NCBI GenBank assembly: GCA_021773135.1
Contig: JAJFKP010000023.1
Location: 1 to 64,000, forward strand
Source of the DNA: Woeseiaceae bacterium
Lineage (GTDB): Bacteria; Pseudomonadota; Gammaproteobacteria; Steroidobacterales; Woeseiaceae
Reading direction: 5' to 3'
DNA: 64,000 nt
Below the pieces are notes generated by a model. The model saw nothing but the letters and a program-made list of their open reading frames with translations, was not told the origin of the DNA and did no database searches. Both the position numbers and the translations under genes were made by a program. Positions 7,828-55,059 of this stretch are shown here, piece by piece (positions within the stretch are counted from its first letter, which is position 1; each line of letters begins with the position of its first letter).

Positions 7828-8781
7828 TCAAGCTACCAGTGAATTCTGGCTACCCTCGTCGGACTGTTCGGATTCCGCACCATACTGATCGTTTTCCGCA
7901 TCGCATACTGCGGCTTGTTCGCGGGAAACATATACCTGCATCGCATTTTTGATCGTATGGCAGCGGATCGGTGTCTTCGATAACAACTCTCCATCTGCCG
8001 TCACGTCGCATTGTCGACGCACGTCAAGTTCAACTCGCTTGCCTGTCGCGTAAAACAGTTTCTCGTCGTCTTTAACGGCACCAAACTTCAATCGCGTGCC
8101 ACGCAGGAACAGTTGCAACGGCGTCAGTGGACGCACGCATAATACGTGTAACACGCCGTCATCTATTCTAGCGTCTTCGCACACCGTCATACCGCCACCA
8201 TAGTGCCGACTGTTGCCAATCGTAATCTGCACAAACGGCAGGCGGTGCTCGCGCCCGTCAATCCTCAGTGTTGCGCGGTAGCGCCGCCGCTTGTAGAAGA
8301 CCTGGATCAGGCTTTCGAGGTAGGCGATAACGCCCAGGCGTTTCTTGGTATCCCGATCGAGCTGTTTGGTGAGTTCCGGACCGAGTCCGACACCGACAGC
8401 ATTAAGGAAGTAGTGGCCATTTACTACGCCGACGTCAACGCCATGCGTCTTGTTATCGCAAATCGTTTTGGCGGCTTCGACCGGGTCGCTGGAGAGGCCC
8501 AGGCTGTGTGCAAAGTCGTTGGCGGTGCCAAGCGGCAACACGCCGAGCGGCAGCCCGGTCGCAACAATGTCGGACAAGACTGAGCTCAGTGTCCCATCTC
8601 CTCCGGCAACCACGACGCGTTCAAGGCCCGCACCGAGTTTCGCTATGCGTTCCGGTACTTCTTCCTCGCCGCCCAGTTTCATGACGTCTACGGGACCCAG
8701 TTCGGATAACGCAGCGACGACCTCGTCGAGATCGGCATCACCATTGCGGCTGTAAGGATTAACGATTAGTAAAGTAGACAT
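7828..8781 (-). CDS. YegS/diacylglycerol-kinase-like lipid kinase
   Basis: 317 residues from the ATG at 8781. It has the kinase signatures AGGDGTLSSVL near residue 65 and LPLGTANDFA near residue 90. The family phosphorylates diacylglycerol, phosphatidylglycerol or sphingosine-like lipids at the inner face of the membrane. The C-terminal 30 residues are an unusual Glu/Asp/Ser/Gln-rich tail. The start overlaps the stop of the VTT gene (TAATG), so the two form an operon. An open frame extends 34 codons upstream but lies inside the VTT gene. Confidence 0.88.
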   Translation of the reverse strand: MSTLLIVNPYSRNGDADLDEVVAALSELGPVDVMKLGGEEEVPERIAKLGAGLERVVVAGGDGTLSSVLSDIVATGLPLGVLPLGTANDFAHSLGLSSDPVEAAKTICDNKTHGVDVGVVNGHYFLNAVGVGLGPELTKQLDRDTKKRLGVIAYLESLIQVFYKRRRYRATLRIDGREHRLPFVQITIGNSRHYGGGMTVCEDARIDDGVLHVLCVRPLTPLQLFLRGTRLKFGAVKDDEKLFYATGKRVELDVRRQCDVTADGELLSKTPIRCHTIKNAMQVYVSREQAAVCDAENDQYGAESEQSDEGSQNSLVA

Positions 8782-9527
8782 TATTTCGATGCTCCCATTC
8801 GCGAGTTCAGTGCCCGTTTTCCGTAAAACAACATTATTGCGACCAGAACGATGCTGACGACTACGCCGCCATAGAGCAGCCATTGCTGGAGCTCCGTCGG
8901 CCCGCCGTCTTCGTTCAGCATCGCTTTGCCACCGACCCAGCCCAGGTAGACCTGCGCCAGCCCGACCGGAATAAATCCGAGAATGCTCGGCACGATATAG
9001 GTGCGGAAGGGAAGGCCGGTTGTGCCGAATCCGTACCCGCCAATGATTCCCGGAATAAACGGGTTAAGGCGAATCAGGAATACCACTTTGAAGCTCTCTT
9101 CTTTGACCATGTGCAGCAGGCATTCGACATTCGGCAGGCGGGCAAGTCGCCGTTCAACCCAGTCGCGCGCAACGTTGCGTGCGATAAAAAACGACAGTGC
9201 GTGTGCTGTGGCGGCTGCAACCAGCACCGCACCAATCGCCACCGGAAAACTGAACATGAAGCCTGCAGAGACGTTAAACAACGTCCGCGGGATTCCGACG
9301 AGTGCACACACCACGTATAAACAGTAGAAGACCAATATGCTGATTGGCCCGCTTGCATCAATCCAGGCGACCGCGCTTCTGATGTAATCCGTAACCGGCA
9401 GTGCCTGCCAGATCCCGTACAGCAACAGGCCGACGGCCGCGGCGCCCAAAATCAATACAATTGTCGTTCGCTTTTCCGGAACAAGAGATGAACCGGCTGG
9501 GGATGCTGTCGTACATGGCGAACTCAT
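8781..9527 (-). CDS. TVP38/TMEM64 (VTT) family membrane protein
   Basis: 248 residues with about five membrane segments and the VTT signature LNPFIPGIIGGYGFG near residue 155. Members of this DedA-related family are linked to lipid scrambling and envelope homeostasis. It is coupled to the lipid-kinase gene, which suggests that substrate lipid and transbilayer movement are connected; that link is inference. Confidence 0.88.
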   Translation of the reverse strand: MSSPCTTASPAGSSLVPEKRTTIVLILGAAAVGLLLYGIWQALPVTDYIRSAVAWIDASGPISILVFYCLYVVCALVGIPRTLFNVSAGFMFSFPVAIGAVLVAAATAHALSFFIARNVARDWVERRLARLPNVECLLHMVKEESFKVVFLIRLNPFIPGIIGGYGFGTTGLPFRTYIVPSILGFIPVGLAQVYLGWVGGKAMLNEDGGPTELQQWLLYGGVVVSIVLVAIMLFYGKRALNSRMGASK

Positions 9528-9663: not shown

Positions 9664-9859
9664 TACGACGCCAGAAACGGTTCGCCAACCTCAGTACTTT
9701 GCAATCAGCTCTGTTTTTCATCTGTTTCTCCGGCTTCGGTCAGCGCGCGTGCCAATATTTGCTGCAGATGTTGCAAGTCCTGTGCCAGCCTCGCAGTAAG
9801 GCGCAAACCCGGTTGGTTCCGGCGCTGATCCCGTTCCTGTCCGCAACGCACCTGGCAAA

Positions 9860-9898
9860 CTTTGCAAAATGCCGCGGAATTTTGTCGTTCTTACCAAG
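9860..9898. promoter_or_regulatory. Candidate enhancer for cardiolipin synthase gene
   Basis: Contains TTTGCAAAAT and, 20 bp later, TCGTTCTTACCAAG, which matches TCGTTCTTACAAAG upstream of the entericidin gene (23137-23150) at all but one base. It ends about 80 bp before the -24 element. Confidence 0.4.
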
Positions 9899-9980: not shown

Positions 9981-9998
9981 CTGGCACGAAACCTGCTG
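9981..9998 (+). promoter_or_regulatory. Sigma-54 promoter
   Basis: CTGGCACGAAACCTGCTG: consensus TGGCACG and the correct 10-base spacing to GC. It starts about 80 bp upstream of the cardiolipin synthase ATG. Confidence 0.85.
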
Positions 9999-10063: not shown

Positions 10064-11338
10064 ATGTTTATGACCGGGCTGGCGATTGTCGGCGCTCTGT
10101 TAATCGGCATTGTCGGCATCTATGGCACGCTGTCGTGGCTGGCGCGCCGCCGCCGCACCCCTGGCTGGGAGATCGAAGCGGAATCTTTGCCTGCAGTGTC
10201 CCGCCTGCTGCCGACACTTGCGGCGATGACAAACAGCCAGCGCTTTCAGCAATCCGCTGTCGAAATTTTTCAAAATGGCTCGATATTCGACGCGATTCTT
10301 GCAGACATCGACAACGCGCGAGCGACGATTCACCTCGAAACGTACGTCTGGGAAAAAGGCGAGCTGGAGGAGCGCTTCGTAGGCGCATTGACAGGCGCGG
10401 TGGAGCGAGGTGTTGCGGTTCGGCTCATTATCGACGACATCGGCTCATACAAGCGTGGCTCGAATGTCTTTGAGCAATTGCGCGCGGCAGGGATCCAGTT
10501 ACATATTTTCAGTCCGCTGACGCTGACGCGGCTGCACCGCTTTAACGAACGCACTCACCGCAAGGTCATCATTATCGATGGCTCGGCTGCCTATACCATG
10601 GGTCATGGCATCAGCGATAATTGGCTCGGCGATGCACAGGACGAGGAACATTATCGTGACACCGGCGTAAAGATTACCGGGCCGGCTGTGAAAGGCCTGC
10701 AGGCGGTTTTCGTGACGGAGTGGGCCGCCGTTAAACACGAGCTGTTATATGGCGATGAGGTTTTCCCACCGCTGGAACCGGCCGGCGACGCCGATATATG
10801 CGTTGTATCAAGCAATGTCGGTGACCGCTACTCATACGTTGAGCTTGCCTTTACGCTTTCTATCGCCGCTGCAAAAGAAGAGATACTGATCCAGAATCCT
10901 TACTTCGCACCGGACCCGGATATTATTCAATTATTAGGGGACCGGGCGAGAAGCGGCGTCAAAGTTACGTTAATGCTGCCCGGCGGCGCGACGGATTCTT
11001 ACCTGTTACGGCTGGCCGCCAGGCATCTCTATCCCGATCTGCTGGAAAGTGGCGTAACCATTCTCGAATACAAGCCCACACTGAGCCACCAGAAGGTCAT
11101 GATCGTTGACGGAGAGCTCTCGCGGGTCGGCTCGACCAACTTCGACTGCCGGTCACTCGAACTGAACTCGGAAGCCGGCGTTATTATCCAGGACAAGGCG
11201 GTGGCAGCTGCGCTCAAAGCGCAGTTCCTGCGCGATGCGGAACACTGCACACCTATATCAACAAAGGATCTGAAGAAGGTTTCGCTGCCTGCGCGAGTAG
11301 CGATGGCCGGCGTCTATCTGCTGCACGGCCAGCTCTGA
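10064..11338 (+). CDS. Cardiolipin synthase / PLD-superfamily phosphatidyltransferase
   Basis: 424 residues with one N-terminal membrane anchor and two HKD motifs: HRKVIIIDGSAAYTMG near residue 167 and HQKVMIVDGELSRVGS near residue 345. Two HKDs with this length fit bacterial cardiolipin synthases, which condense phosphatidylglycerol with another phospholipid in the inner membrane. Its sigma-54 promoter and the neighbouring PLDc_N, VTT, lipid-kinase and APP1 genes suggest stress-controlled phospholipid remodelling. A second PLD protein lies at 53589-54917. Confidence 0.9.
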   Translation: MFMTGLAIVGALLIGIVGIYGTLSWLARRRRTPGWEIEAESLPAVSRLLPTLAAMTNSQRFQQSAVEIFQNGSIFDAILADIDNARATIHLETYVWEKGELEERFVGALTGAVERGVAVRLIIDDIGSYKRGSNVFEQLRAAGIQLHIFSPLTLTRLHRFNERTHRKVIIIDGSAAYTMGHGISDNWLGDAQDEEHYRDTGVKITGPAVKGLQAVFVTEWAAVKHELLYGDEVFPPLEPAGDADICVVSSNVGDRYSYVELAFTLSIAAAKEEILIQNPYFAPDPDIIQLLGDRARSGVKVTLMLPGGATDSYLLRLAARHLYPDLLESGVTILEYKPTLSHQKVMIVDGELSRVGSTNFDCRSLELNSEAGVIIQDKAVAAALKAQFLRDAEHCTPISTKDLKKVSLPARVAMAGVYLLHGQL

Positions 11339-11441: not shown

Positions 11442-11459
11442 TTGGCACGATTTCTGCTT
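11442..11459 (+). promoter_or_regulatory. Sigma-54 promoter
   Basis: TTGGCACGATTTCTGCTT: consensus -24 box and correct spacing. The leader to the ATG at 11531 is about 60 nt. Confidence 0.88.
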
Positions 11460-11530: not shown

Positions 11531-11716
11531 ATGGAAGGTTTAATTGGATTGGTAATTCTGGCGCTGGACATCTACGCGATCGTGCAGATCGTTGGCAGCG
11601 GAGCAAGCACAGGCGCAAAGATTGGCTGGAGTCTGCTCGTACTGTTACTGCCAGTTGTTGGCTTGATCATCTGGGCCTTTGCAGGTCCGCGCGGTCGATC
11701 GGCAGTCAGTATATAA
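11531..11716 (+). CDS. Stand-alone PLDc_N domain membrane peptide
   Basis: 61 residues made of two membrane helices (VILALDIYAIVQIV and SLLVLLLPVVGLIIWAF) ending in a GPR motif. This is the PLDc_N domain normally found in front of cardiolipin synthases, here as a separate gene just after such an enzyme. GGGAGAAACG precedes the ATG. It may modulate the synthase or another membrane protein (inference). Confidence 0.85.
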   Translation: MEGLIGLVILALDIYAIVQIVGSGASTGAKIGWSLLVLLLPVVGLIIWAFAGPRGRSAVSI

Positions 11717-12211: not shown

Positions 12212-12439
12212 CTACTCAGCAGTTTTTACCACAGCACTGATCTCGTTGGCCATGGCGCCCGCCTTCGCGCATTCCTTCAACACGGTGTCGATTGCAGCCT
12301 CTACCCTGGCGGCTGCGGCGCTGTCGGCCGCGAGCATCTTTACGAGCTCCGACTGCATAGAGATGACATTCAGTGCATTGTTAATGTCATGTACCTGTTT
12401 GCGTATGGCCAGAACGTCGGCTTCGTGCAGCACGGGCAT
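12212..12439 (-). CDS. DHp-only mini histidine-kinase-like protein
   Basis: 75 residues that look like only the two-helix dimerisation/phosphoacceptor domain of a histidine kinase: VHDINNALNVISMQSEL carries an H-box-like His-Asp near residue 17. There is no ATP-binding domain, sensor or membrane segment. It begins 8 bp after the stop of the sigma-54 activator with no clear ribosome site, so it is probably translationally coupled. It could be a phosphotransfer intermediate or an antagonist of the activator; both are inference. Confidence 0.65.
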   Translation of the reverse strand: MPVLHEADVLAIRKQVHDINNALNVISMQSELVKMLAADSAAAARVEAAIDTVLKECAKAGAMANEISAVVKTAE

Positions 12440-12447
12440 AAAGAGCG

Positions 12448-13743
12448 TTACTCGGGGGTTTGGTATTCGTTGAGGCGGTTATACAGCGTCTTCAGACTGA
12501 CGCCGAGAGCCTCGGCGGTTTGCGTCTTGTTGCCATCGTAATGTTCCAGCGTCTTCGTGATCAGTTCACGCTCGACATCGCGAATTGACATACCGACACT
12601 GAGTCCGGATCCGCCGGTCAGGTTAGGCGGTTTTTCAAAGCCGCCGGGCAGTTCGTCCACCTTGTCTCTTCCCATGCACATCAGCGATGAACGCAGGACG
12701 GTGTGTTTGAGCTCACGCACGTTCCCGGGCCAGGTATGCCGCTGCAACGCATCGATAACGTTATCCGCAAAATGTCGCGGTCCGTTGTGCTCGTCGGCGG
12801 CCTCGTTGAGAAAATGCTGTGCCAGTATAGCGACGTCGCCGTCCCGGTCTCTAAGGGGTGGAACTTCGATGGGTAGCACCATGAGTCGGTAATAAAGGTC
12901 TTCGCGGAATTCTTTGGCTGCGAGCGCCTCATCAAGATCCGCATTTGTAGCAGCGATGATGCGCGCCTTGATCTCGATGTCCCGGTCTCCGCCGACGCGT
13001 CGCAGTGTCCTGTTCTCGAGTACACGTAGCAAAGCGACCTGTTGATCCAGCGGGAGCTCACCAACTTCGTCGAGGAAAACCGTGCCATTGCCAGCACGTT
13101 CGAAATAACCCAGGTGCTTGCCTGATGCGCCAGTGAAGCTGCCTTTCTCGTGCCCGAACAATTCGCTGGCGATTAATTCTGCCGGTATCGCGCCGCAGTT
13201 GACGGCGACAAACTTTTCTTTAGGTGCTCCGATCTCGTGCAATCCGCGCGCAACAAGATCCTTGCCGGTGCCACTCTCTCCCTTGATAAATACAGTGACG
13301 TTGGTCGGGCCGTAACGCTCAATATCGGCATACACTTTTTGCATTTGCGGCGAGTCGCCAACCATTCCCGCCACGCGCCCCGGCGTAGCAGGATTCGAGG
13401 CGGACTTCGTGGAAGAGGAAATTGCCGACATCAGGTCCGCTTTGTTCAGCGGCTTGACCAGGTAGTCATCCACGCGATCACGCATGGCCCGAACCGCCGT
13501 TTCGACGGACGGGTGTCCGGTTACGATCACCGTGCGCGGGCTGCCGTTACCGACGAGCTCCAGGCCACTGCCGTCCGGTAGTGCGAGGTCGACAAACTGA
13601 ATGTCAAACGTGCCGGTTGCGAGAAGGTCCTTTGCTTCTGCCACGGTCGCCGCGGTACAGACATTGAGGCCTTCTGCCGACAGCAGGGCGCAGGTAGCGT
13701 CGGTGAATCCGGGGTCGTCGTCGACGAGCAGTACATTTGGCAT
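12448..13743 (-). CDS. NtrC-family sigma-54-dependent response regulator
   Basis: 431 residues. Receiver domain (1-115) with phosphoacceptor Asp in FVDLALPDGSG; AAA+ domain (about 135-360) with Walker A GESGTGKD, the sigma-54 contact loop as GSFTGA (usual GAFTGA with Ser for Ala) and Walker B TVFLDEVGEL; C-terminal Fis-type helix-turn-helix (TQTAEALGVSLKTLYNRL). It activates RpoN promoters from distant sites. It is surrounded by 14 sigma-54 promoters within 28 kb, so it is the natural candidate to control them. No sigma-54 promoter precedes it; it probably has its own housekeeping promoter. Confidence 0.95.
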   Translation of the reverse strand: MPNVLLVDDDPGFTDATCALLSAEGLNVCTAATVAEAKDLLATGTFDIQFVDLALPDGSGLELVGNGSPRTVIVTGHPSVETAVRAMRDRVDDYLVKPLNKADLMSAISSSTKSASNPATPGRVAGMVGDSPQMQKVYADIERYGPTNVTVFIKGESGTGKDLVARGLHEIGAPKEKFVAVNCGAIPAELIASELFGHEKGSFTGASGKHLGYFERAGNGTVFLDEVGELPLDQQVALLRVLENRTLRRVGGDRDIEIKARIIAATNADLDEALAAKEFREDLYYRLMVLPIEVPPLRDRDGDVAILAQHFLNEAADEHNGPRHFADNVIDALQRHTWPGNVRELKHTVLRSSLMCMGRDKVDELPGGFEKPPNLTGGSGLSVGMSIRDVERELITKTLEHYDGNKTQTAEALGVSLKTLYNRLNEYQTPE

Positions 13744-13835
13744 TATTATTTACGCCGTCAGATGTGGTGTGGCGACCCAGTATAGACGGTCGAATCGGGT
13801 TAACCTAGCCCCCGCAAGCTTGATTTCGGCGAATT

Positions 13836-14252
13836 TCAGCGACTCTCAGCGGCCAGTCTCACAGCGGCTTCTATGTGATTCGGCAGGGCCGGCTTCTTAA
13901 TATAATCGAGCACTTCTAAGTCTTCGCTGTCGGCTCTCAAGGTTTCCATGGATGTGCCACTTACAAAAACCACTTCCGAGCCATGGCGCTTTTGTAGTTC
14001 TCGTGCAGTATCGACACCGTCACGGTTGCCCCCCAGCTGTCGGTCGCAAACTGCCACGTCGGGTGGCGCGACTGCGGCAACGGCGAGCGCCTGTCCATAA
14101 TTGGCGGCTGACGCCACAGCATAGCCGTGAGCTTCCAGAAATATCGATAAGGTCTCACGCAAGACGGGATGATCTTCTACAACCAGTACCCGCAGCACGG
14201 GGCGCGGCCTGGCGGAATCGCCTGGCGGTGCAGCGTTATCCTTCGCATTCAT
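13836..14252 (-). CDS. CheY-like single-domain response regulator
   Basis: 138 residues from the ATG at 14252, chosen because AAAGGA lies a few bases upstream; the open frame extends to 14369. It is a lone receiver domain with acidic pocket VVEDH, phosphoacceptor Asp in VCDRQLGG and Lys in YIKKPAL, and no output domain. It lies 92 bp upstream of the NtrC-type regulator in the same direction, so it may be part of a phosphorelay with it and the DHp-only protein. Confidence 0.88.
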   Translation of the reverse strand: MNAKDNAAPPGDSARPRPVLRVLVVEDHPVLRETLSIFLEAHGYAVASAANYGQALAVAAVAPPDVAVCDRQLGGNRDGVDTARELQKRHGSEVVFVSGTSMETLRADSEDLEVLDYIKKPALPNHIEAAVRLAAESR

Positions 14253-14398: not shown

Positions 14399-14764
14399 TT
14401 ATTCGTCGTCTTCGTCTTCAGGGAGATCGATGTCAACGTCGGGAAGAGAAATGGTTTTTTCTTCCGTTGAAACATCAACGTCCACATCTGGAACTGTGAC
14501 GGTTCTCTCTTTCATTCGAACATCGATATCCGGTCCGCGCACGTCGTATTCGGGCAGCTTGCCGCCGTCAACGTCAACATCGACATCGGGCATGCGTCCG
14601 TCCTGCGTTTGACGTACGTCAACGTCATACTTCGGCAGCTGGCCGCTGGTACCAGAAACATCGATGTCAGGCATTTCGCCATCTTCGATCTTGTCAATCT
14701 CACAGCCGCTCAACGCGATGGCAGAAGCTGCTGCGGTAACCGTGATCATTTTCCTAATGTTCAT
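14399..14764 (-). CDS. Acidic lipoprotein with PDVDV repeats
   Basis: 121 residues. A signal sequence ends in lipobox IALSGC near residue 21. The mature part is built of repeated blocks (MPDIDVSG, KYDVDVRQ, MPDVDVDVDGG, EYDVRGPDIDV, VPDVDVDV, LPDVDIDLPEDEDDE), so Asp alternates with Val and Ile as in a repeating beta strand. It is extremely acidic and may bind cations. I do not recognise the family. It is driven by a consensus sigma-54 promoter. Confidence 0.8.
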   Translation of the reverse strand: MNIRKMITVTAAASAIALSGCEIDKIEDGEMPDIDVSGTSGQLPKYDVDVRQTQDGRMPDVDVDVDGGKLPEYDVRGPDIDVRMKERTVTVPDVDVDVSTEEKTISLPDVDIDLPEDEDDE

Positions 14765-14851: not shown

Positions 14852-14869
14852 AAGCAAGAGCCGTGCCAA
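14852..14869 (-). promoter_or_regulatory. Sigma-54 promoter
   Basis: Minus strand TTGGCACGGCTCTTGCTT, an essentially perfect -24/-12 element, identical over all 18 bases to the entericidin promoter at 23041. About 90 bp upstream of the acidic lipoprotein start. Confidence 0.93.
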
Positions 14870-14931: not shown

Positions 14932-14947
14932 TTACAAACGTTTGTAA
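14932..14947. promoter_or_regulatory. Perfect 16-bp palindrome, candidate enhancer
   Basis: TTACAAACGTTTGTAA is exactly self-complementary and lies 62 bp upstream of the -24 end of the promoter at 14852-14869. It is the clearest member of the TTGTAA-type sites near sigma-54 promoters in this window. Confidence 0.6.
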
Positions 14948-15557: not shown

Positions 15558-15575
15558 TTGGCCCGGAAGTTGCAT
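15558..15575 (+). promoter_or_regulatory. Sigma-54 promoter
   Basis: TTGGCCCGGAAGTTGCAT: correct spacing and a perfect TTGCAT -12; the -24 box has C for A (TGGCCCG). The leader to the ATG at 15624 is about 38 nt. Confidence 0.8.
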
Positions 15576-15623: not shown

Positions 15624-16079
15624 ATGAATATTTACGAACGCTTGATAGAAGATCACGGTAAACAACGCGGCATGGCAGCCGGGCTGGCTAAAACCGAAGG
15701 CGACAGTGCCGAACGTAAGCGGCTGTTTGGCGAGTTCTATAAAGAACTGGAGGCGCATGCTGCAGCAGAAGAGCAAACATTCTACGCCGAACTGCTGGGG
15801 CTGGCGGACGGTCAGGAAAAATCGCGGCACAGTGTTGCAGAACATAAAACGGCCTCCGACCTGTTAAAAGAACTGGAAAAAACGGACATGAGCAGCAGCG
15901 GCTGGCTGCAAAAGTTCAAAAAGCTCAAGCACGAAGTCGAACATCATGTCGACGAGGAAGAGAAAGAGGTGTTTCCGCTGGCACGGAAGTTGATCTCCGC
16001 AGCGCGAGCGAACGAACTGGGCGCGGATTTTGAGAAACGCAAGCAGGCTGAGCTCGAAGAACTGGCCGAGTGCGCATAA
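15624..16079 (+). CDS. Hemerythrin HHE domain protein
   Basis: 151 residues, a four-helix bundle with iron-ligand residues in the usual order: His11 (IEDHGKQ), HAAAEEQTFY, SVAEHKT and HEVEHHVDEEEKEVFP. Soluble hemerythrins bind O2 or NO at a di-iron site and serve in sensing or iron/oxidative-stress protection. ACAGGAGACC precedes the ATG. Monocistronic, between a sigma-54 promoter and a strong terminator. Confidence 0.93.
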   Translation: MNIYERLIEDHGKQRGMAAGLAKTEGDSAERKRLFGEFYKELEAHAAAEEQTFYAELLGLADGQEKSRHSVAEHKTASDLLKELEKTDMSSSGWLQKFKKLKHEVEHHVDEEEKEVFPLARKLISAARANELGADFEKRKQAELEELAECA

Positions 16080-17060: not shown

Positions 17061-17387
17061 TCAAGCGCGATAGTAGTTATGGACGTCGTCCCGCCACTTC
17101 GGATCGGCAGTGTTTGGCCAGTTGTCCTTGTCGAAGCCCGGCGCTCCTTTCAATCGCTCTTTGTCGATGTCCAGTACGCAACATTCGCGATTGGTATCGA
17201 TCTCGATAGCTGACATCGGTATGGCAAAAAGCTTGTCACCTATACCCATTACGCCGCCGAAAGAAAGTACCGCGTAATCCACTGCACCCTTTTCTGCGTT
17301 AATCATCAGGTCCTCGATATTGCCGAGGTCTTCATCCTGGTGATTGACGACCTTGTTGCCCGAAAGTGAGCTTGCTGATAAATGCAT
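17061..17387 (-). CDS. PRC-barrel domain protein
   Basis: 108 residues from the ATG at 17387, preceded by CAGGAGAATG. The N-terminal beta-barrel (GNKVVNHQDEDLGNIEDLMI, then YAVLSFGGVMGIGDKLFAIP) is a clear PRC-barrel of the type found in stress-linked, photosystem-unrelated proteins. The tail contains WRDDVHNYY. It likely scaffolds or binds RNA, ions or another protein; not established. Confidence 0.9.
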   Translation of the reverse strand: MHLSASSLSGNKVVNHQDEDLGNIEDLMINAEKGAVDYAVLSFGGVMGIGDKLFAIPMSAIEIDTNRECCVLDIDKERLKGAPGFDKDNWPNTADPKWRDDVHNYYRA

Positions 17388-17456
17388 TTCATTCTCCTGT
17401 TTGTTTGTAATTGAAGGATTGGTTTTGCACCGGTTAGCCGGCATCACAGGAAGTAA

Positions 17457-17474
17457 TGCAGTTTTTATGCCAGC
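17457..17474 (-). promoter_or_regulatory. Sigma-54 promoter
   Basis: Minus strand CTGGCATAAAAACTGCAT: 10-base spacing, TGGCAT -24 and CTGCAT -12. It leaves a leader of about 60 nt to the PRC-barrel ATG. Confidence 0.8.
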
Positions 17475-17668: not shown

Positions 17669-18205
17669 ATGAGTGAAGAGACTCGGGCCGATGCCCCTGC
17701 AGCCAGTGCGGCTGTCGGCCTGACCCAGGACAATTTCATGCGTGACCTGATCCGGGAGCTGGCGGGTACGCTGGAAGACGTCATCGGCCTGGAAGATGCA
17801 TCGGGCTACATCAGCGTTGTTGGCCAGCTGATTGGCGAAAAGATCGATGCGGAGTACAGGAACGCACTGTCGGTCGCAAAACTGGACCAGACACAGGTGG
17901 GCGACGTACTGGTGGACCTGAAACGCAGGATCAATGGCAAATTTTTTATTATCGAGGAAGACGAGCACAAGATTGTTTTTGGCAACCATCGCTGCCCGTT
18001 TGGCGACAAAGTGATTGGCCGTCCATCAATGTGCATGATGACGTCTAACGTGTTCGGGCACATCGCGGCGGAAAACCTGGGCTATTCCAAAGTCGTGCTG
18101 GAAGAAACGATCGCCCAGGGTCACAACGGCTGCAGAGTCGTGGTTCACCTGCGAGATAACGATGCAGCGAAGTCGGCAAGCGGACGAGAATATGTCGCTG
18201 CCTGA
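17669..18205 (+). CDS. MetOD1 (methanogen output domain 1) protein
   Basis: 178 residues. After a 20-residue tail comes the MetOD1-like domain with conserved Cys in [20 protein letters not shown] and NGCRVVVHL, which could hold a metal or act in redox sensing. The domain is known mainly next to or inside histidine kinases. Its end overlaps the next gene, a hybrid kinase, by 14 bp, so it is probably the sensory partner. A TATAAT at 17621-17626 may be a housekeeping -10. Confidence 0.8.
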
Positions 18206-20300
18206 CAGCCTGACGCTGGATGACTTTGCCGACATCCTGCCGGACCCGTTTATCCTGGTGAATAAGTCCGGTGAAATCCTGTACGGCAATGCGCGGGCGA
18301 AAAGCCTCATTTTATCAAGCGAAAATGAGGCGCCGCAAAATATCAAAGACCTGTTCGAAGAGCCCGCTGAGGTCGTCGAGCGCTACCTGCTGATGTGCCG
18401 GCGCAATCTGCAGCCGGTACCGGGCAAATTCACCGTAAGAACCGCAGTTGACTCGTTCGACTCCTTCCTGGTTCACGGTGGGCGGATCCTGCGCGATAAC
18501 GTTGATGCAATTTGCCTGGATTTTCATGATAAATCCAAGGCTGGCGAAAGCGAGCGCTTCAGAACACTCAACGACACGGTCGAAAGACTGCAGCTTGAAA
18601 TTAAGACGCGCAGACAATTTGAAGCAATTCTTGAGGCTGAGAAACAAACGCTCGCCTGTGTAATCAGCGGCCAGCCTTTGCCGGTTGCAATGAACTTGCT
18701 GGCAACTGCGCTCGAAAAACAGGTAGAGGGCATGCTGACCTCGATCTTGTTGCTCGATGAAGATCAAAGCCTCAGGCATACGGCGGCGCCAAGTCTGCCC
18801 GCAGAATATTCCGCTGCGATCGACGGCCTGCAGATCGGACCAGACGTCGGATCTTGCGGCAATGCTGCCTTTACGGGTGTCACGACCATAGCTGAGGACA
18901 TCACGGAGGATGCCAGGTGGGAGCCATTCCGCGAGCTCGCAGCGGCGGCAAATCTGCGCGCCTGCTGGTCATCGCCGATTTTTTCTTCCGACGGCGACGT
19001 CCTTGGAACGCTTGCATCCTACTATCGTGTACCGCGTGCCCCGACTGACGATGAGCTGCGCCTAATCGCGAACAGCGCTTATGTGGCGGGAATCGTAATT
19101 GAGCGATATCGTTCGCAGGAAGCTTTGAACGATTTATTAGAGCGCGAAAAAAACCTTCGTGAAGCAGCTGAACAGCAAAATAAAGCCAAGGACCAGTTTC
19201 TGGCGATGCTGGGCCACGAGCTACGAAACCCCCTGAGTGCAATCGCCAATGCGGCTTTTGCGCTCGAGGCAAAATCCGGCGGTGACGACGCTGTTAGTAA
19301 ACTCTACAGAATTGTCGTCAATGAAACTTCGCTGCTAAAGCGTATTCTTGACGACCTGCTCGATCTGAATCGCCTTGGGCGCGGTGCCTTAAAATTGCAG
19401 CGCGAAAAGTTGCACCTTGGCGCATTCTTAGACGAACTGCAGATTGCCATTAAATCCGCTTACCCGGAACGTGCCATTCGCTTCGAAGTCGATGGCGAGC
19501 TGGGGGAGATTAATGCTGACGCCTCCCGACTCAGACAGTCTGTGCAGAACCTGCTGGACAATGCCGTCAAGTATTCGGAAGTTGGCGACGATGTACATTG
19601 TCGAGTCACTGCGAACGCAGATGCTATTACGATCGAGGTTGCAGATACCGGTGAGGGGATAGCAGCGGAGATTCTGCCCACGATATTCGAGCCGTTTGTC
19701 CAGGCCGACAAATCGCTGGATCGCCCTGCAAGCGGCGTGGGCCTTGGCCTGGCCCTGGTGAAGCGATTCACCGAAATGCATGGCGGGCGCATTCATGTTG
19801 AGAGCGATGGCGTCGGCCGGGGCAGCCTGTTCCGGCTGGTCATACCGCGGACCGGTGGCACAACAGGCGCTGCCGTTGCGCCGTCAAAACCGAACGGAAC
19901 GGACACGCCCCGCCGGGCCTGCAAAGTTCTCGTAGTCGAGGACAATACCAATGCCCGGGAGGGGTTGTGTCAGCTGCTGGAGATCTGGGGTCACGAGGTT
20001 TTCTCGGCTGCCGATGGCAAACAGGCCCTCGACGTTTTTCGTGACCAACAGCCCGACGTCGCGCTGGTCGATATTGGGTTGCCGGAGATTGATGGCTATG
20101 AGGTCGCGGCAACGGTGCGTAAAAACGCCGCCAACACGCACATCAAGCTGGTCGCATTAACCGGCTATGGTCAGGATGCCGATCGACAGCGTGCCATTGA
20201 CGCCGGATTCGATGCACATATTGTCAAGCCCGCAAACATTAAAGATCTTATCTCTGTATTGGGCGATCCAGCGCCGCAGGCATCAGCTTCGAGCGCGTGA
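18192..20300 (+). CDS. PAS-GAF hybrid histidine kinase with C-terminal receiver
   Basis: 702 residues from the ATG at 18192. Order: PAS (about 10-125), GAF (about 165-320), HisKA with [16 protein letters not shown] near residue 340, HATPase ([25 protein letters not shown]) and a receiver with phosphoacceptor Asp in [16 protein letters not shown] near residue 630. No membrane segment, so it senses in the cytoplasm. Its kinase-receiver tail closely resembles that of the CheB-CheR hybrid at 56744-61201. It is coupled to the MetOD1 gene; its target regulator is unknown but the CheY-like and NtrC-like proteins nearby are candidates. Confidence 0.92.
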
Positions 20301-20474
20301 CTTAGCGTCCTCCGCGGCCTCTTTCGCTTCCTCAAGCTCGCTGTCGCTAATATCTCTTGCAGCTTCTGCTCGCTCTTCAGCATCAGTGTTGTGCACGGTG
20401 TCGCGAACGTCTTCCCGGTAGCGACGGTCGGCTTCCCGATTGCCTTCACCAGGGTTTTTTGTAACGTCTTCCAT
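20283..20474 (-). CDS. Small highly charged protein
   Basis: 63 residues, nearly all charged or Ala (EAARDISDSELEEAKEAAED), likely one long helix. Its start is coupled to the AI-2E transporter stop (TAATG) and GGAGG lies just upstream. It ends overlapping the hybrid-kinase gene tail to tail by 18 bp. Family not recognised; resembles small hydrophilic stress proteins. Confidence 0.7.
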   Translation of the reverse strand: MEDVTKNPGEGNREADRRYREDVRDTVHNTDAEERAEAARDISDSELEEAKEAAEDAKSRARS

Positions 20475-21628
20475 TATCTTCCTCCTTCAGGATACATGTT
20501 AGTTGTTGATTTTGGTTTGCGTGGTTGCCGGTAAGGGCGCTTGTTGTGGCCCTGCCAGTTGTCTGATCGCAGGAACGAGCTCAGGTGTTGCTGCGCCGGC
20601 ATATGGTCACACCAGACTTTCATGCTTGTCATGATCGGCACTGCCATAAGGGCGCCGGCAACGCCCCACAGCCACCCCCAGATCAGGACTGAAATAAACA
20701 CCATGGTCGGGTTCAGCGACATGCGGCTGCCCAGTATTGATGGCGTTATTACCTGGCCTTCCAGGGTTGTCAGGATGAATATTGCAATCGGCGCAGTGAG
20801 TCCCTGGCCAACGGTTTCATAGTTCGTAAGCCCGACCACAGTCAGGACCAGTGTCGACACCACGGCGCCAACATAGGGTGCAAAATTAAGCGCCCCGATC
20901 ATCGTGCCCCAGAGCACCGGGTTTGGAAATTCGAGCAGGTACAGTATCCCGGCGGCCAATGCACCAAGGCTAATATTAATGATCGTTACTGTGCCAAGAT
21001 AAACGGACAGGTCGTTCTGAATTTCACGAGCGATGGTCACGATCCTGCGCCGGCTGGTCCAGCTGCGGGCACACTGCGTAAGGCGGCGCAACATGCCGTC
21101 GCCGGAAGCGAGCAAAAAGTAAGTCAGGAATATGACAACAGCGGCACCGGTGATGATGTACGGCAGCCCCCCCAGCACTCCCTCGAGAATGCCCGGGCCT
21201 TCGACAATGACTGACTGCGGCGCATTACTGGATTCCACGGAGGCTATTTCCTCAACCTCTTCGGCCAGCTCCTGAATCTCTGCGAACCTGCCCTTGGTCT
21301 CTATCATTTGCGACTTGAGCTCGCGCACCGTCTTCGGCACTTCCGCCAGCCATTGTTCAGCCGGCTCCGCAAGAGTCGCAATTGCCAGGCCGACAAGGCC
21401 GACCAGGGCGAGCATGATCATTGCCGCTGAGATTCGTGGCACGATGCCGATCCTGTCCATGCGGCGAACGAGAGGCGAAAGCAGCTGGTTCAGAAGGATT
21501 GCAAAAGCAATTGGCACGAGGACGTCAGACGCCAGGTAGAGCGTGTAACCGACGGCGAGGACGAACAGGCCAACGGTGGCGCCTGCCCACACCGGGGTTT
21601 GTGATTCTCGTTCAGAGATTGGTGACAT
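20474..21628 (-). CDS. AI-2E/PerM family transporter
   Basis: 384 residues with about seven to eight membrane helices and the family pattern: an N-terminal pair, a long helical periplasmic stretch (about 75-140) and a C-terminal GQVITPSILGSRMSLNP motif. Members export small molecules or act as Na+/H+ antiporters; the name AI-2E does not prove a role in quorum sensing. The chain ends in a basic Lys/Arg/Pro tail. Driven by the sigma-54 promoter at 21672. Confidence 0.9.
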   Translation of the reverse strand: MSPISERESQTPVWAGATVGLFVLAVGYTLYLASDVLVPIAFAILLNQLLSPLVRRMDRIGIVPRISAAMIMLALVGLVGLAIATLAEPAEQWLAEVPKTVRELKSQMIETKGRFAEIQELAEEVEEIASVESSNAPQSVIVEGPGILEGVLGGLPYIITGAAVVIFLTYFLLASGDGMLRRLTQCARSWTSRRRIVTIAREIQNDLSVYLGTVTIINISLGALAAGILYLLEFPNPVLWGTMIGALNFAPYVGAVVSTLVLTVVGLTNYETVGQGLTAPIAIFILTTLEGQVITPSILGSRMSLNPTMVFISVLIWGWLWGVAGALMAVPIMTSMKVWCDHMPAQQHLSSFLRSDNWQGHNKRPYRQPRKPKSTTNMYPEGGR

Positions 21629-21671: not shown

Positions 21672-21689
21672 GTTGCACGGACCGTGCCA
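21672..21689 (-). promoter_or_regulatory. Sigma-54 promoter
   Basis: Minus strand TTGGCACGGTCCGTGCAA: consensus -24 and correct spacing, -12 GTGCAA. It lies 44-61 bp upstream of the AI-2E start. Confidence 0.82.
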
Positions 21690-21840: not shown

Positions 21841-21858
21841 GTGGCATGCAACTTGCTT
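21841..21858 (+). promoter_or_regulatory. Sigma-54 promoter
   Basis: GTGGCATGCAACTTGCTT: 10-base spacing and a perfect TTGCTT -12. The leader to the CsbD ATG is about 50 nt. Confidence 0.85.
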
Positions 21859-23116: not shown

Positions 23117-23150
23117 CTTGCAAAATTTCTTGTAGATCGTTCTTACAAAG
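23117..23150. promoter_or_regulatory. Candidate enhancer for entericidin gene
   Basis: On the minus strand it reads CTTTGTAAGAACGATCTACA and then TTGCAAGAA. It begins 58 bp upstream of the -24 element and overlaps the stop codon of the APP1 gene. It shares CTTGCAAA plus TTGTAGATCGT with the hemerythrin upstream region. Confidence 0.5.
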
Positions 23151-24387
23151 TGTCCCGTTCCTCATCCCGTGCAACGCTCTTGGCGACCTGTTCCTCCTCC
23201 CGCGACGACAGCAGGCCGATCGATCGCATATGGGTGGCGAACGCCTCACTGTCTGCACCGCGAATCATCGGCACGCCGTCGACGCTGCCGTCACGAATGA
23301 TTGCGTCGACGGACAGGTCATATTTCGAATCCATGCCCGGATCCACATCACGGATGTATATGCCCAGGATGCGGTCCGGAAACTCTTTCGCTACCGCCTG
23401 GTAAAGCGCCGCGTCATGCTGTCCGGAATCTCCAATAAGGATGGCGGGCAGGCGCGGGAATCGCTCCAGCAGCGCACGGAATGTCTCCGCCTTGTGGTTT
23501 TTCGTCGAGTGCTCGCCCCTGCCGCCGAGGTCGCGCAACAATAGCGGGCCGTGCGGGATGTCGTTGTGGTCAATGAAGTCCCGCAGCACGTCATACATGT
23601 TCCAGCCTGAATTCGAAACGTAAAATACCGGGTTTGCGGAGCTGTCATCCGCATAATCCACCAGTTCGCGATAGAGGCCGGCAACGCCATCCAGCGGCTT
23701 GCGGGTCTTGGCGTTATGCAGGAACGTGAGCTGGGCGGCGCGCAGCTTGCGGGTGATCCCCGTATGAATGACGGTGTCGTCCATGTCACTGATAATCATG
23801 AAGCGCGCATCGGGATCCGCCATCCTGACATTGTGGGTGTTGACCAGCGTTCCACCCCGAGTCATCACGGTTGCGCGCACCTCATGATATTCATCGCGTG
23901 CGTCACTGACGTCAAACTTCGCTTCGTAATAACCCTCATCGTCCGACGTGACCGTCTGCGCCTCGCCTTTGTAATCGAGAGTGACGCAAACGCCGCTCAG
24001 TTCGTCAGTCTCCCAGCGCCTGAAAGACGAACGCAGGTTGTCCCACCAATTATCGTCATCTGTCGGTGCGTTGCTCGGTTTGTTGGCGAGAATTCGGCCC
24101 CTGACCCAAAGCTGCTCGCCGTTACCGTATCCGGTATAGGCGGCGATCTGGCGCGGCGACTCTGAAGACGTGCACGCAGCAGTGGGTTGCCTGTTCGCTT
24201 CGTTGGTGTCGCCAGACGCTGCCGTTTCCTGATTGTGGTTCATTGCTTCGCTCCCGGTATCCGTTGCGGTGTATTCATGCTGTTCTGTCGCCGCCTGACA
24301 GCCAGAGCTGCCGAGAAGCATCCATCCGATCAGCGTGGGCAACAATGTGGCGTGCCACACGCCTGCTTTTCTTATTGGGAAACTCAT
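23143..24387 (-). CDS. APP1-type phosphatidate phosphatase domain lipoprotein
   Basis: 414 residues from the ATG at 24387. Signal with lipobox-like GSSGC near residue 27, a beta-sandwich-like middle domain, then the App1 catalytic domain with the HAD-type motif SDMDDTVIHTG near residue 215 and FYVSNSGWNMYDVL near residue 265. App1 in yeast dephosphorylates phosphatidate. Here the enzyme is predicted to act in the periplasm or outer membrane. The open frame extends 87 codons upstream through the promoter, so that start is rejected. Confidence 0.88.
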   Translation of the reverse strand: MSFPIRKAGVWHATLLPTLIGWMLLGSSGCQAATEQHEYTATDTGSEAMNHNQETAASGDTNEANRQPTAACTSSESPRQIAAYTGYGNGEQLWVRGRILANKPSNAPTDDDNWWDNLRSSFRRWETDELSGVCVTLDYKGEAQTVTSDDEGYYEAKFDVSDARDEYHEVRATVMTRGGTLVNTHNVRMADPDARFMIISDMDDTVIHTGITRKLRAAQLTFLHNAKTRKPLDGVAGLYRELVDYADDSSANPVFYVSNSGWNMYDVLRDFIDHNDIPHGPLLLRDLGGRGEHSTKNHKAETFRALLERFPRLPAILIGDSGQHDAALYQAVAKEFPDRILGIYIRDVDPGMDSKYDLSVDAIIRDGSVDGVPMIRGADSEAFATHMRSIGLLSSREEEQVAKSVARDEERDTL

Positions 24388-24435: not shown

Positions 24436-24453
24436 AAGCAAGACGCATGCCAA
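24436..24453 (-). promoter_or_regulatory. Sigma-54 promoter
   Basis: Minus strand TTGGCATGCGTCTTGCTT: 10-base spacing, TTGCTT -12. About 50-65 bp upstream of the APP1 start. Confidence 0.88.
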
Positions 24454-25042: not shown

Positions 25043-26104
25043 TTGGTGAGTAGCGCAGCACAGATTGCCTACGCACCCTGCGGTTTCCTCGATCAGCGGG
25101 ACGCGATAGCAGCAGAAGTGATGTCGAGAATGTTCGCCGCGGATATGTCCTTGCGCGATGCACAGGATCGCGCCGAGATGGATAAGTACCGTGAAGATAT
25201 CGGCTTCCATATTTTATATCTTGCGGAAGCCATTGCCGCGCGCGCACCGGGCCTGTTTCGCAACTACACCGACTGGGTTGAGGACGTTTTGAACGGCCTG
25301 GGTTTCAGGACGGACCAACTGCAAAATTGCTTCCGCATCATTGCGGCAGTGCTGCAGGAGCGCGACTACCTCGTGGATGCAGATATCGCTGTCGAATACT
25401 TGAACCACGCGATCACGAGGCTTGGTTCGCCGAAGGACGCCACCATTTCCTCGTTGGACACCGCGAATGAGCCGGCGCAACACATGCTTGCCGAATTACT
25501 TGCCTGTCGACGTTCGAAAGCTTTCGAAATTGTTGAAAAGGCGGAAGCGAATGGACTGCCACTTGCCGACATTTACCTGCAGCTATTTCAGCCTGCGCTG
25601 CGCGAAGTCGGGCGACTCTGGCAGCAGAATAAAATTTCCGTGGCCCAGGAGCACTATTGCAGCGCCGCTATCCAGCTAATGATGGGCCGTCTTGCTGCAA
25701 AAATTTTTTCAAGCAAGCGAAACGGCTACACAATCGTTTCGGCATGCGTTGGCAAAGAGTTGCACGAGATAGGACTGCGAATGATCGCAGATATTATGGA
25801 GGCCTCTGGCTGGGAAACACACTTCCTGGGTGCTAACGTTCCAACCGGAGATCTGGTCGCGATGGTTCGTGACACACGGGCTGATGCGCTCTGCCTGTCC
25901 GTTACATTGACCTCGAATTTGTTTCACTTGAATGAGGTGATACTGGCGATGCGCGCAGAGACCGATCTCCAGCACGTCAAAATCATCGTTGGCGGGTATC
26001 CGTTTATTTTGCAGCCTGATTTGTGGCGGACCGTCGGCGCTGACGGTCACGCGCCTGATGCTGCCAGCGTCAACAGGATTTGTCTGGACCTTGTCGAACA
26101 GTAG
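25043..26104 (+). CDS. Cobalamin-binding sensor protein (CarH/LitR-like B12 domain)
   Basis: 353 residues; start is TTG 25043 or GTG 25046. After an N-terminal helical region (1-140), a B12-binding cap carries the W-x9-EH signature (LWQQNKISVAQEH) known from adenosylcobalamin photoreceptors. The Rossmann-like B12 domain follows with KELHEIGLRM (E-x-H-x-x-G in place of D-x-H-x-x-G, also typical of that group) and later LGANVP and IIVGGYPF. There is no DNA-binding domain, so the signal probably goes to the histidine kinase whose gene overlaps this one by 14 bp. Confidence 0.88.
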   Translation: MVSSAAQIAYAPCGFLDQRDAIAAEVMSRMFAADMSLRDAQDRAEMDKYREDIGFHILYLAEAIAARAPGLFRNYTDWVEDVLNGLGFRTDQLQNCFRIIAAVLQERDYLVDADIAVEYLNHAITRLGSPKDATISSLDTANEPAQHMLAELLACRRSKAFEIVEKAEANGLPLADIYLQLFQPALREVGRLWQQNKISVAQEHYCSAAIQLMMGRLAAKIFSSKRNGYTIVSACVGKELHEIGLRMIADIMEASGWETHFLGANVPTGDLVAMVRDTRADALCLSVTLTSNLFHLNEVILAMRAETDLQHVKIIVGGYPFILQPDLWRTVGADGHAPDAASVNRICLDLVEQ

Positions 26105-27314
26105 TCATCATCCGTCGGCACAGCTGGCGCTGTTATGCGACCGTGACGGTGTCGTGCAGCACTGGCTGCACGACGGCATCGGTGCCAGCGAGGTGCACCC
26201 GGAAAATTGCACCTTTGTCCGATTGCTGCACGAGTCGAACCAGGTCAAAGGCCTGAACTTTCTTTCAACCCTGACAGGCAAGCGCGTCGCTGCCGACTGG
26301 GACCTTTGCTTTGCGGTGCCGGGCGGTGGCATTGAGGTATTGCACGTCGCGGGAAGCTGGTGCGATAAAGGTGCTCTGGTGCTGGCGGGAAATGCGACAT
26401 CATCACTGCAGAGTTTGTGCAACGATGTACGTGAACTACACCCTGACGTTGCATCCGCTTGCGACAAGATTGCTGCCGAATTCCAGGCCGATGAAAAGAT
26501 CGACGACACGGCTGTCTATGCACAGTTAATGCAAATGTACAACGATTTTGCCCGGATGCAGCGTGAATTTGCGAGCCAGAACGCAAAACTGATTCGCCTT
26601 GCTGACGAGAAGGAGGATATGCTGAATATTGCTGTGCACGATCTGCGCAGTCCGCTGAACGCAATTTCGTTACTGGCGAGTTCGGTAGAACAGCTCGCGC
26701 AGGATCGCCTGACCGACCGCGAAGTGTCCCTCCTAAACAGGATCGTTGACACGGCCGGCGAAATGGGCACTACGGTTACCCGGATTCTTGACGACGCAAA
26801 GCATGATCCGAGCGGACCGGTGGTGGAGTTTGTGCCAGGCGACATGCATGCGCTGGTCGCTGCCAGAATTGAGTTACTCGGTGCCCTGGCGACGCGTAAG
26901 TCCATTGAAATCAAACTATTGTGTGAGGATGAGCTGCCGCCGATTCCGTTTGACAGGACGCATATGCCGCACGTCGTTGATAACGTCCTGGGTAATGCTA
27001 TTAAGTTCTCGCCGACCGGCGGCGATGTTGAAATTCATCTGCACAAGAACGGCGATGAGATGGTGCTCGAATTCTGTGACCGTGGCGAGGGCATTCCCGC
27101 AGGCGAAGACAAACTGATATTTAACTCGTTTGAAACCGGATCAGTGCGACCCACTGACGGCGAAGCCAGCAACGGCCTGGGCCTGGCAATTTGTCGCTCG
27201 ATAGTGGCTGCCCACAACGGCACCATCGTCGCCGACAACAGGGATGGTGGCGGTGCGGTATTCCGAATTACGTTGCCGCTGCGACAGCAGGGGCTGCGCG
27301 CCAGCAAGATTTAG
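26091..27314 (+). CDS. Cytoplasmic sensor histidine kinase
   Basis: 407 residues if started at TTG 26091; no ATG is well placed and the open frame extends further upstream inside the B12 gene. A PAS-like N-terminal region (1-150), coiled coil, HisKA with MLNIAVHDLRSPLNAI near residue 185 and HATPase motifs NVLGNAIKFSPTGG and GLGLAICRS. No receiver and no membrane segment. The partner is probably the B12 protein just upstream; the output regulator is not encoded next to it. Confidence 0.85.
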   Translation: MSNSSHHPSAQLALLCDRDGVVQHWLHDGIGASEVHPENCTFVRLLHESNQVKGLNFLSTLTGKRVAADWDLCFAVPGGGIEVLHVAGSWCDKGALVLAGNATSSLQSLCNDVRELHPDVASACDKIAAEFQADEKIDDTAVYAQLMQMYNDFARMQREFASQNAKLIRLADEKEDMLNIAVHDLRSPLNAISLLASSVEQLAQDRLTDREVSLLNRIVDTAGEMGTTVTRILDDAKHDPSGPVVEFVPGDMHALVAARIELLGALATRKSIEIKLLCEDELPPIPFDRTHMPHVVDNVLGNAIKFSPTGGDVEIHLHKNGDEMVLEFCDRGEGIPAGEDKLIFNSFETGSVRPTDGEASNGLGLAICRSIVAAHNGTIVADNRDGGGAVFRITLPLRQQGLRASKI

Positions 27315-53588: not shown

Positions 53589-54917
53589 TCAGTGACCGCC
53601 CTGTAGCAGCTTGGCGCTGCCATGTTTCACTTTGGACCACAAACTGCGTTCTTCCCATTGATCGGCAGTTATCTCGTCTGTGTTACGACTATCTTGCAGA
53701 AAAGTTTCCGCCATGCGCTCGGCAAAGTTCCGGTCGAGGACAATCGCATTCAGTTCGTTGTTAAATTCGATGCTGAGAACATCCAGGTTACTCGACCCGA
53801 CAGTGCTCCAGTTCTCGTCAATCACGGCGGTCTTCGCATGCAGGATGCCGCTTTTGTACTCGAAGATACGGACTCCTGCTTCCAACAGGTCAGAATAATG
53901 GGCGCGTGCTGCCAGTTCGGCAATATCGACATCGGATTCTTGCGGCAGCAGGACGCGTACATCGACGCCGCGTCGTGCGGCCACTTCCAGTTCATCTACC
54001 AGTTCATCCGTCGGTGCGAAGTAGGCCTGCGTTATCCAGATACGTGAACTGGCATTCTTGACGGCAGATATCAAGTAGTCGACGACGGTTGAGCCCAGCT
54101 CATCGTCGCCGGTTGCTGCGACAATGGCGACCTCCTGGTTTCCCACCGCCTTGAGGTCAGGAAAATAGTCGGCTTGCGCTACTGGCCGTCCCTCGGCTTC
54201 GTCCATCCAGTTTGTCAGGAAGGCTTCCTGCATAGCGGCAACGGCCGGGCCACGAATTTTCAGGTGGGTGTCGCGCCAGCTCTCGTCAAACCGCGCTTCT
54301 GACACCGCCGATTCTGAGTCGAAGCGATAGTTTTCGGTAAAATTCAAGCCTCCCGTGAAGCCTGTTTCTCCGTCTACAATCAGAATTTTCCGGTGATTGC
54401 GGTTATGCCAGTCACCCGGTTCGGTCTCCATCAACGGGTGAAATGCGAGGATGTTGATACCCCTTGATTTCAGTTCGTTAAAGTAGTCGTCGCCAGTCGA
54501 CATGCTGCCAACAGCATCGTAGCAAACGTTGACGACCACGCCGTTCGCCGCTCGCTCTGCGAGTGCGTCCGCCAGGCGGCGTCCAACCTGGTCGTCCGCA
54601 AGAATGAATGTCTCCAGGTTTATATGGTCTTCGGCGCCGTTGATCGCCGCAAACATCGCATCATAAGTTTCCGGGCCGTCTATCAGCAGCTCAACGCGGT
54701 TTCCGGCAATAACCGCACCGTCGGACGGAAAGCTTCGACCATCGTTTGTTGCGGGTGACAACCTGCTGTGAGGACCCGGAGAGGCCGTCATATTTGCAAG
54801 GTCGCCGGTAATTTTTTCAGAGTCAGTCGGCCCGCTACACCCTGATACCAGCAAACAGACAAGCACCGATGACACCAACTGACTCGTAAAAACGGATATT
54901 CGTTCGAATATTTTCAT
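53589..54917 (-). CDS. Phospholipase D / cardiolipin-synthase-like lipoprotein
   Basis: 442 residues from the ATG at 54917 (AGGAGAAATTC upstream). Signal with lipobox LLVSGC, then two PLD HKD motifs: HRKILIVDGETGFTGG and HAKTAVIDENWSTVGSSN. It is related to the cardiolipin synthase at 10064 but exported and lipid-anchored, so it should act on phospholipids in the periplasm or outer membrane. Confidence 0.9.
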   Translation of the reverse strand: MKIFERISVFTSQLVSSVLVCLLVSGCSGPTDSEKITGDLANMTASPGPHSRLSPATNDGRSFPSDGAVIAGNRVELLIDGPETYDAMFAAINGAEDHINLETFILADDQVGRRLADALAERAANGVVVNVCYDAVGSMSTGDDYFNELKSRGINILAFHPLMETEPGDWHNRNHRKILIVDGETGFTGGLNFTENYRFDSESAVSEARFDESWRDTHLKIRGPAVAAMQEAFLTNWMDEAEGRPVAQADYFPDLKAVGNQEVAIVAATGDDELGSTVVDYLISAVKNASSRIWITQAYFAPTDELVDELEVAARRGVDVRVLLPQESDVDIAELAARAHYSDLLEAGVRIFEYKSGILHAKTAVIDENWSTVGSSNLDVLSIEFNNELNAIVLDRNFAERMAETFLQDSRNTDEITADQWEERSLWSKVKHGSAKLLQGGH

Positions 54918-54944
54918 GAATTTCTCCTGCGCACAGGCAGGACG

Positions 54945-54962
54945 ATGCATTTAACGTGCCAT
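54945..54962 (-). promoter_or_regulatory. Sigma-54 promoter
   Basis: Minus strand ATGGCACGTTAAATGCAT: consensus TGGCACG and correct spacing, -12 ATGCAT. About 28 bp upstream of the PLD lipoprotein ATG. Confidence 0.8.
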
Positions 54963-54983
54963 CACATCCGCAGCCGCGTCCTG

Positions 54984-55001
54984 CTGGCATGCGTCTTGCA
55001 A
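54984..55001 (+). promoter_or_regulatory. Sigma-54 promoter
   Basis: CTGGCATGCGTCTTGCAA, sharing 15 bases TGGCATGCGTCTTGC with the APP1 promoter at 24436. It lies only 21 bp from the divergent promoter at 54945-54962. Confidence 0.87.
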
Positions 55002-55059
55002 CACACGGGTAACAGTAACAACACGGGCTGCGTACAGCGGCAGCAACAGGAACTGAACT

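Follow-up and report, generated by a model that had tools for sequence, protein, structure and literature searches.

A hairpin-only DHp protein paired with an NtrC-type sigma-54 activator and a putative stress regulon in gammaproteobacteria

In the CckA-ChpT-CtrA, Spo0F-Spo0B-Spo0A and Pak-SdrG-PhyT-PhyR systems, a kinase-derived DHp protein with no autokinase activity moves phosphate between receivers (PMC3433190, PMC5898713). The DHp-type phosphotransferases compared here (Spo0B, ChpT and PhyT) all retain a dead ATPase-like domain, and a natural version consisting of the hairpin only would reveal the minimal unit of a His-Asp relay and how kinases get stripped down. Here we describe a candidate for such a protein, encoded in a 64,000-nucleotide stretch of Woeseiaceae DNA (the window), together with its relatives. 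Like Spo0B of Bacillus and ChpT of Caulobacter, it has a DHp-type hairpin with a phosphoacceptor-type His and lies between signalling proteins that carry receivers on one side and a response regulator that binds DNA on the other; ChpT also shares with the family a Pro at H+5 and a hairpin of like length (PMC3433190). In contrast to both, the whole protein is 63-115 aa long without a C-terminal domain, its gene adjoins that of its regulator, the partner is either a sigma-54 activator of the NtrC type or a REC-GGDEF protein, and the transfer is a prediction. Because the C-terminal domain of Spo0B and ChpT is absent, we do not class the DHp-only protein as a member of their family.

The LuxO-LuxU pair of Vibrio offers another parallel, since it also joins a sigma-54 activator of the NtrC type to a small phosphotransfer protein able to collect signals from several kinases, and the genes of the activator and the phosphotransfer protein are paired. 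LuxU, however, is a monomeric Hpt bundle, whereas the DHp-only family matches HisKA and not Hpt. The isolated DHp domain of EnvZ likewise comes without an ATPase domain, but it is a laboratory fragment and not a natural gene. The alphaproteobacterial PhyT/SdrG/PhyR system is similar in its response-regulator-driven stress regulon, its lone receiver and its kinase-derived phosphotransferase (PMC5898713), but PhyT is anchored in the membrane and has a degenerate ATPase domain, and the output is the EcfG sigma factor instead of sigma-54. In the open-access literature, our searches yielded no account of DHp-only proteins or of the regulon considered below.

The operon and its smallest gene

The operon runs along the minus strand from 14764 to 12212, in the order lipoprotein-like gene, lone receiver, activator and DHp-only protein. 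These genes and the nearest candidate kinase are:

12212-12439, minus strand: DHp-only protein, 75 aa; HDINNALN at residues 17-24, phosphoacceptor-type His17
12448-13743, minus strand: NtrC-type sigma-54 activator, 431 aa; REC with D52, AAA+ with GSFTGA, Fis-type HTH
13836-14252, minus strand: lone receiver; Asp/Ser/Lys active-site set complete
14399-14764, minus strand: lipoprotein-like protein, 121 aa, PDVDV repeats; first gene after the operon's sigma-54 promoter
18162-20300, plus strand: GAF-HisKA-HATPase-REC hybrid kinase without Hpt, weak PAS match; nearest candidate kinase, presumed link to the operon

The activator, with the Pfam domains Response_reg, Sigma54_activat and HTH_8, has the features of the NtrC family, namely a REC domain, a GAFTGA-type loop (here GSFTGA), a Fis-type HTH and intact phosphorylation residues. 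The first-pass annotation had described a 75-residue DHp protein 8 bp after an NtrC-type activator, with a CheY-like protein before the activator and no complete kinase in the operon. The 8-bp gap and both genes with their domains were confirmed, and the CheY-like protein is the lone receiver at 14252-13836 (Pfam Response_reg, a single REC), which starts with the ATG at 14252 with AGGA ahead. The absence of a complete kinase holds for the window, where the nearest hybrid kinase lies ~4 kb from the operon and is divergent. That kinase is preceded and slightly overlapped by a frame at 17669-18205 with a match to MetOD1 (methanogen output domain 1). Two further overlapping frames at 25043-27314 encode a 353-aa protein, a candidate sensor of possible B12-binding type, and a histidine kinase; among the other proteins of its own genome, this kinase, through its DHp region, matches the DHp-only family best (E 6e-5).

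On its own, the 75-aa protein matched HisKA (PF00512) weakly, at E 0.0057, below the Pfam gathering cut-off. Among 18 family members searched with profiles (E up to 0.1), 17 matched HisKA, the best at 3.5e-8, and none matched Hpt. No HATPase domain was found by Pfam, so the protein is not a complete kinase, and a C-terminal degenerate ATPase-like domain is also absent, as the chain stops after the hairpin throughout the family. An AlphaFold2 monomer model gave an antiparallel two-helix hairpin (residues 6-36 and 40-74; mean pLDDT 94). Foldseek and VIA-align searches with this hairpin returned generic helical hairpins, in which the LvrB and DesK kinases appeared beside many unrelated entries; since such searches cannot separate a DHp hairpin from other helical hairpins, they were left out of the evidence. 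A PDB profile search gave weak matches only, with LvrB as the sole kinase with a sizeable match.

Relatives from the same family of bacteria are ~59-64% identical to the window protein and occupy the same position. The dN/dS ratios of the five closest plausible orthologue pairs were 0.06-0.21; between the window and the Woeseia locus L006, the proportion of nonsynonymous differences was 0.29, with saturated synonymous sites (0.81). Because the relatives lie in the same place, 57 homologues exist and dN/dS is low, the small ORF is, as judged from sequence, a conserved gene under purifying selection and no chance ORF, contrary to the lack of conservation that the first-pass annotation had named as grounds against its reading. 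The idea that it is a decayed, functionless relic of a histidine kinase could draw on its shortness, its weak HisKA match by itself and its rarity in the window's own family, where a short frame occurs in 2 of 107 genomes. This reading is already contradicted and highly improbable, as size and position are kept in many genera, close pairs have the low dN/dS given above, and a His and a Glu are invariant.

Relatives, gene neighbourhoods and conserved residues

We collected ~57 distinct DHp-only relatives of 63-115 aa from at least five gammaproteobacterial families. A wider search found short frames in 14 genomes of another order, and in one large family of that order 54 of 196 genomes and 18 of 52 genera were positive; among those 54, G748 has a long-frame kinase match only and G751 has such a match besides the short one. 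The proteins also occur in families f1, f204, f205 and f223, G1072 representing one such further family. A scan of named genomes gave no matches with the window protein alone as the query; with a three-member alignment, it found two loci in Woeseia MAGs and a distant acidobacterial full-length kinase.

Directly upstream of the 57 DHp-only genes stands an NtrC activator in 50 cases, a REC-GGDEF gene in five and a lone receiver in one, and the remaining gene, which the script left unassigned, is also downstream of an NtrC frame. The activator/DHp pair, whose conservation across genomes the first-pass annotation had suggested examining, is thus widely retained, and what stays constant is a DHp-only protein together with a response regulator. 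The operon of the large family comprises the NtrC activator, the DHp-only protein, a CHASE3 kinase, a lone receiver and a REC-HisKA-HATPase-REC-REC hybrid kinase. The hybrid kinases adjoining DHp-only genes contain receivers and no Hpt. NtrC-DHp pairs without a kinase are found in the window, in the first copy at L098 and in L115.

Closer to the window, an activator orthologue with 79% identity was found only in a genome that also has the DHp-only protein, and one with 48% in a third genome. The whole window arrangement is kept at L006 of genome G026. The second copy in that genome (L005, 435-1303) has the lone receiver and the DHp-only protein with no activator between them, and the gap between these two genes contains no activator remnant. 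The PDVDV lipoprotein-like gene keeps its position at both loci. At L062 of genome G016, an activator of 47-48% identity and a related lone receiver stand beside a kinase, and the DHp-only protein was not found.

The search pattern used for the counts demanded H, L and N at three positions, so the apparent invariance of these residues is partly built in. With this bias, the His is present in 57 of 57 members, and two further members found without the pattern keep it (HDARKPLNRL and HDLRKPMNGI), contrary to the loss of the His that the first-pass annotation had named as grounds against its reading. Outside these positions, H+5 is Pro in 52 of 57 members and H+14 is Glu in all 57. The residue at H+1 is D in 50 of 57 and N, T or S in the other seven. 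At H+4 (n=57), the counts are K 19, G 13, N 11, A 10, S 2 and R 2, so that the family has mostly K, G or A, unlike the T or N of bifunctional kinases. Because H+4 varies and some members lack the acid at H+1, the residues speak against both a kinase and standard phosphatase chemistry in most of the family.

These residues bear on a rather unlikely yet substantial alternative, in which the DHp-only protein is a negative regulator. On this view, it would bind the receiver of the activator and either hasten the loss of its phosphate or keep it sequestered, and direct phosphorylation of the activator would fall to another kinase, such as the CHASE3 kinase in relatives. The EnvZ DHp domain alone retains phosphatase activity, and N at H+4, as in phosphatase-competent DHp domains, is shared by the window protein, the two relatives close to it and the members paired with GGDEF proteins. 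A complete kinase is co-encoded in most relatives, which on that count makes a brake as plausible as a relay, and PhyT is a precedent because it both sequesters PhyR and transfers phosphate (PMC5898713). However, 46 of the 57 members have K, G, A, S or R at H+4, residues that standard phosphatase chemistry would not favour, and mere binding would not need an invariant His.

A sigma-54 promoter cluster with a common palindrome

The strict sigma-54 site pattern (TGGCAYGNNNNYTGCW) has nine matches in the window, against 0.12 expected, and 31 in the genome, against five in the reversed control. The nine sites fall within 1.4% of the genome (binomial p ~3e-10). Strict and looser sites together precede DUF2383, YetF-like, two CsbD, TVP38-like/DAGK-like, phospholipase-D-like, hemerythrin, PRC-barrel, AI-2E, APP1 and DUF883-like genes, and the operon itself. 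The features around the operon are:

9772-9787, minus strand: sigma-54 promoter toward TVP38-like (8781-9527) and diacylglycerol-kinase-like (7828-8883) genes; palindrome at 9852-9867
9982-9997, plus strand: sigma-54 promoter of phospholipase-D-like gene 10064-11338
11443-11458, plus strand: sigma-54 promoter of the gene for a 61-aa PLDc_N-like membrane protein, 11531-11716
14853-14868, minus strand: sigma-54 -24/-12 promoter TGGCACGGCTCTTGCT, upstream of the lipoprotein-RR-NtrC-DHp genes
14932-14947, no strand assigned: perfect palindrome TTACAAACGTTTGTAA, ~80 bp upstream of the operon's -24/-12 site; putative activator site
15559-15574, plus strand: sigma-54-like site upstream of hemerythrin-domain gene 15624-16079
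17457-17472, minus strand: sigma-54-like site (9/11 positions) upstream of PRC-barrel gene 17061-17447
21674-21689, minus strand: sigma-54 site upstream of AI-2E-family transporter gene 20474-21628
21842-21857, plus strand: sigma-54 promoter of a CsbD-like gene from 21919, divergent from the site at 21674-21689
24437-24452, minus strand: sigma-54 promoter of APP1-type phosphatidate phosphatase gene 23143-24387

The cluster has an outlier at 53592-55581, where a membrane-protein gene and a second phospholipase-D-like gene have divergent sigma-54 sites between them.

To model the palindrome, regions 40-200 bp upstream of 14 window promoters were used for EM, which yielded the core TGnAAAnnTTTnCA with a score of 43.0, against 30.7 for the best of 12 dinucleotide shuffles. 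The model replaced GTAAGAACGA, a candidate from the first k-mer hunt that was not above chance at one mismatch. Because the window's own promoters served to train the palindrome, the independent tests are those elsewhere. None of the 22 other sigma-54 sites of the same genome scored above 6.3 (null 95% point, 6.6); they include sites before genes that we take, from their sequences, to be glnK-, glnA-, pilA-, pspA- and flagellar-like. At L062, in another genus and near the activator of 47-48% identity, a region common to two sigma-54 sites, one of them before a BON-like gene, scored 11.7. In the distant family, similar palindromes (TGTAAAnnTTTACA) stand ahead of BON, DAGK-like, hemerythrin and DUF1328-like genes. 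Six sites there precede BON, hemerythrin or DAGK-like genes, and some of these are orthologous; five of the six passed the 95% shuffle point under the window palindrome model, and two DUF1328-like sites fell below it, so that support for the palindrome in distant relatives is modest on these scores. Taken together, the activator appears to control the stress-gene cluster around its operon.

The probable partner and a proposed mechanism

The pairing of the DHp-only protein with the adjacent regulator is well supported. The divergence of the DHp protein tracked that of the activator's receiver beyond that of the AAA+ domain, with a partial r of 0.56 (n=48, Mantel p 0.001) and, in a second set, 0.38 (n=25); the activator's receiver is therefore the best supported candidate partner in these sequence comparisons. 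No co-divergence was found between the lone receiver and the DHp protein in relatives (partial r 0.13). The CHASE3 kinase gave a partial r of 0.09 or 0.52 with the activator's receiver, depending on the segment used.

The same comparison bears on a split arrangement, in which the DHp-only protein would serve a histidine kinase as an accessory subunit, mixing with, or being trans-phosphorylated by, the CHASE3 or hybrid kinase. The CHASE3 kinase is the next gene in most relatives, and its partial r with the DHp protein was 0.31 in the smaller set, but this value was 0.01 in the larger set, and pairs without that kinase exist (the window, the first copy at L098, L115 and the GGDEF pairs). We regard this arrangement as improbable. 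An initially strong contrast between the DHp-only protein and the CHASE3 kinase in the larger set was lost with longer kinase segments.

Our preferred reading, to which we assign a probability of about 0.5, is that the DHp-only protein acts on the NtrC receiver as a phosphotransferase made of the hairpin alone. The 75-aa protein would be a presumably dimeric histidine phosphotransferase cut down to the DHp hairpin, Spo0B/ChpT-like, that docks on the receiver of the adjacent activator. Through its invariant His, it would pass a phosphoryl group to that receiver, and back, the phosphate coming from the receiver of a hybrid kinase or from the lone receiver as candidate donors. The phosphorylated activator would then bind the TTGCAAAnnTTTGCAA-like palindrome and drive the sigma-54 promoters of a local stress and envelope regulon, its own operon included.

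Observations in favour of a relay are the conserved pairing, the invariant His, the co-divergence with the receiver and the sigma-54 cluster with its common palindrome; by analogy, the parts list of the operon and the Hpt-less hybrid kinases nearby may also point to one, as they resemble known relays. Against it, the lone receiver gave no co-divergence with the DHp protein, the N at H+4 in the window protein fits a phosphatase motif, and the relay step may be unnecessary in most relatives because the operon has a complete CHASE3 kinase that co-diverges with the activator's receiver. The first-pass annotation had left a relay and an inhibitory module side by side; the pairing, the His and the receiver co-divergence now add to that picture, and phosphotransfer is favoured, although the choice between relay and brake lies beyond sequence.

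More broadly, we put at slightly under even odds the existence of a new sigma-54 stress system of gammaproteobacteria, in which an NtrC-type activator is reached through the smallest natural DHp phosphotransferase and the module is reused beside a receiver-diguanylate cyclase. The likely regulon (CsbD, BON, hemerythrin, PRC-barrel and phospholipid genes), with a definable activator site, would be common to the window's family and another gammaproteobacterial family. Stress genes of this kind are generally attributed to RpoS or ECF factors, and the link to a stress regulon is the unexpected part.

Two side observations concern the module elsewhere. DHp-only paralogues lie downstream of REC-GGDEF genes at L060 (4667-5920), L109, L112, L113 and L114, with N or S instead of D at H+1, and in these loci the module may be reused for c-di-GMP signalling. 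In the E. coli IncC plasmid pB39_C (NZ_OQ420468.1; L017, 1826-3201), a truncated NtrC gene and the first ~38 DHp residues abut erm(42), which suggests that the erm(42) module acquired chromosomal DNA from a bacterium with the NtrC-DHp operon.
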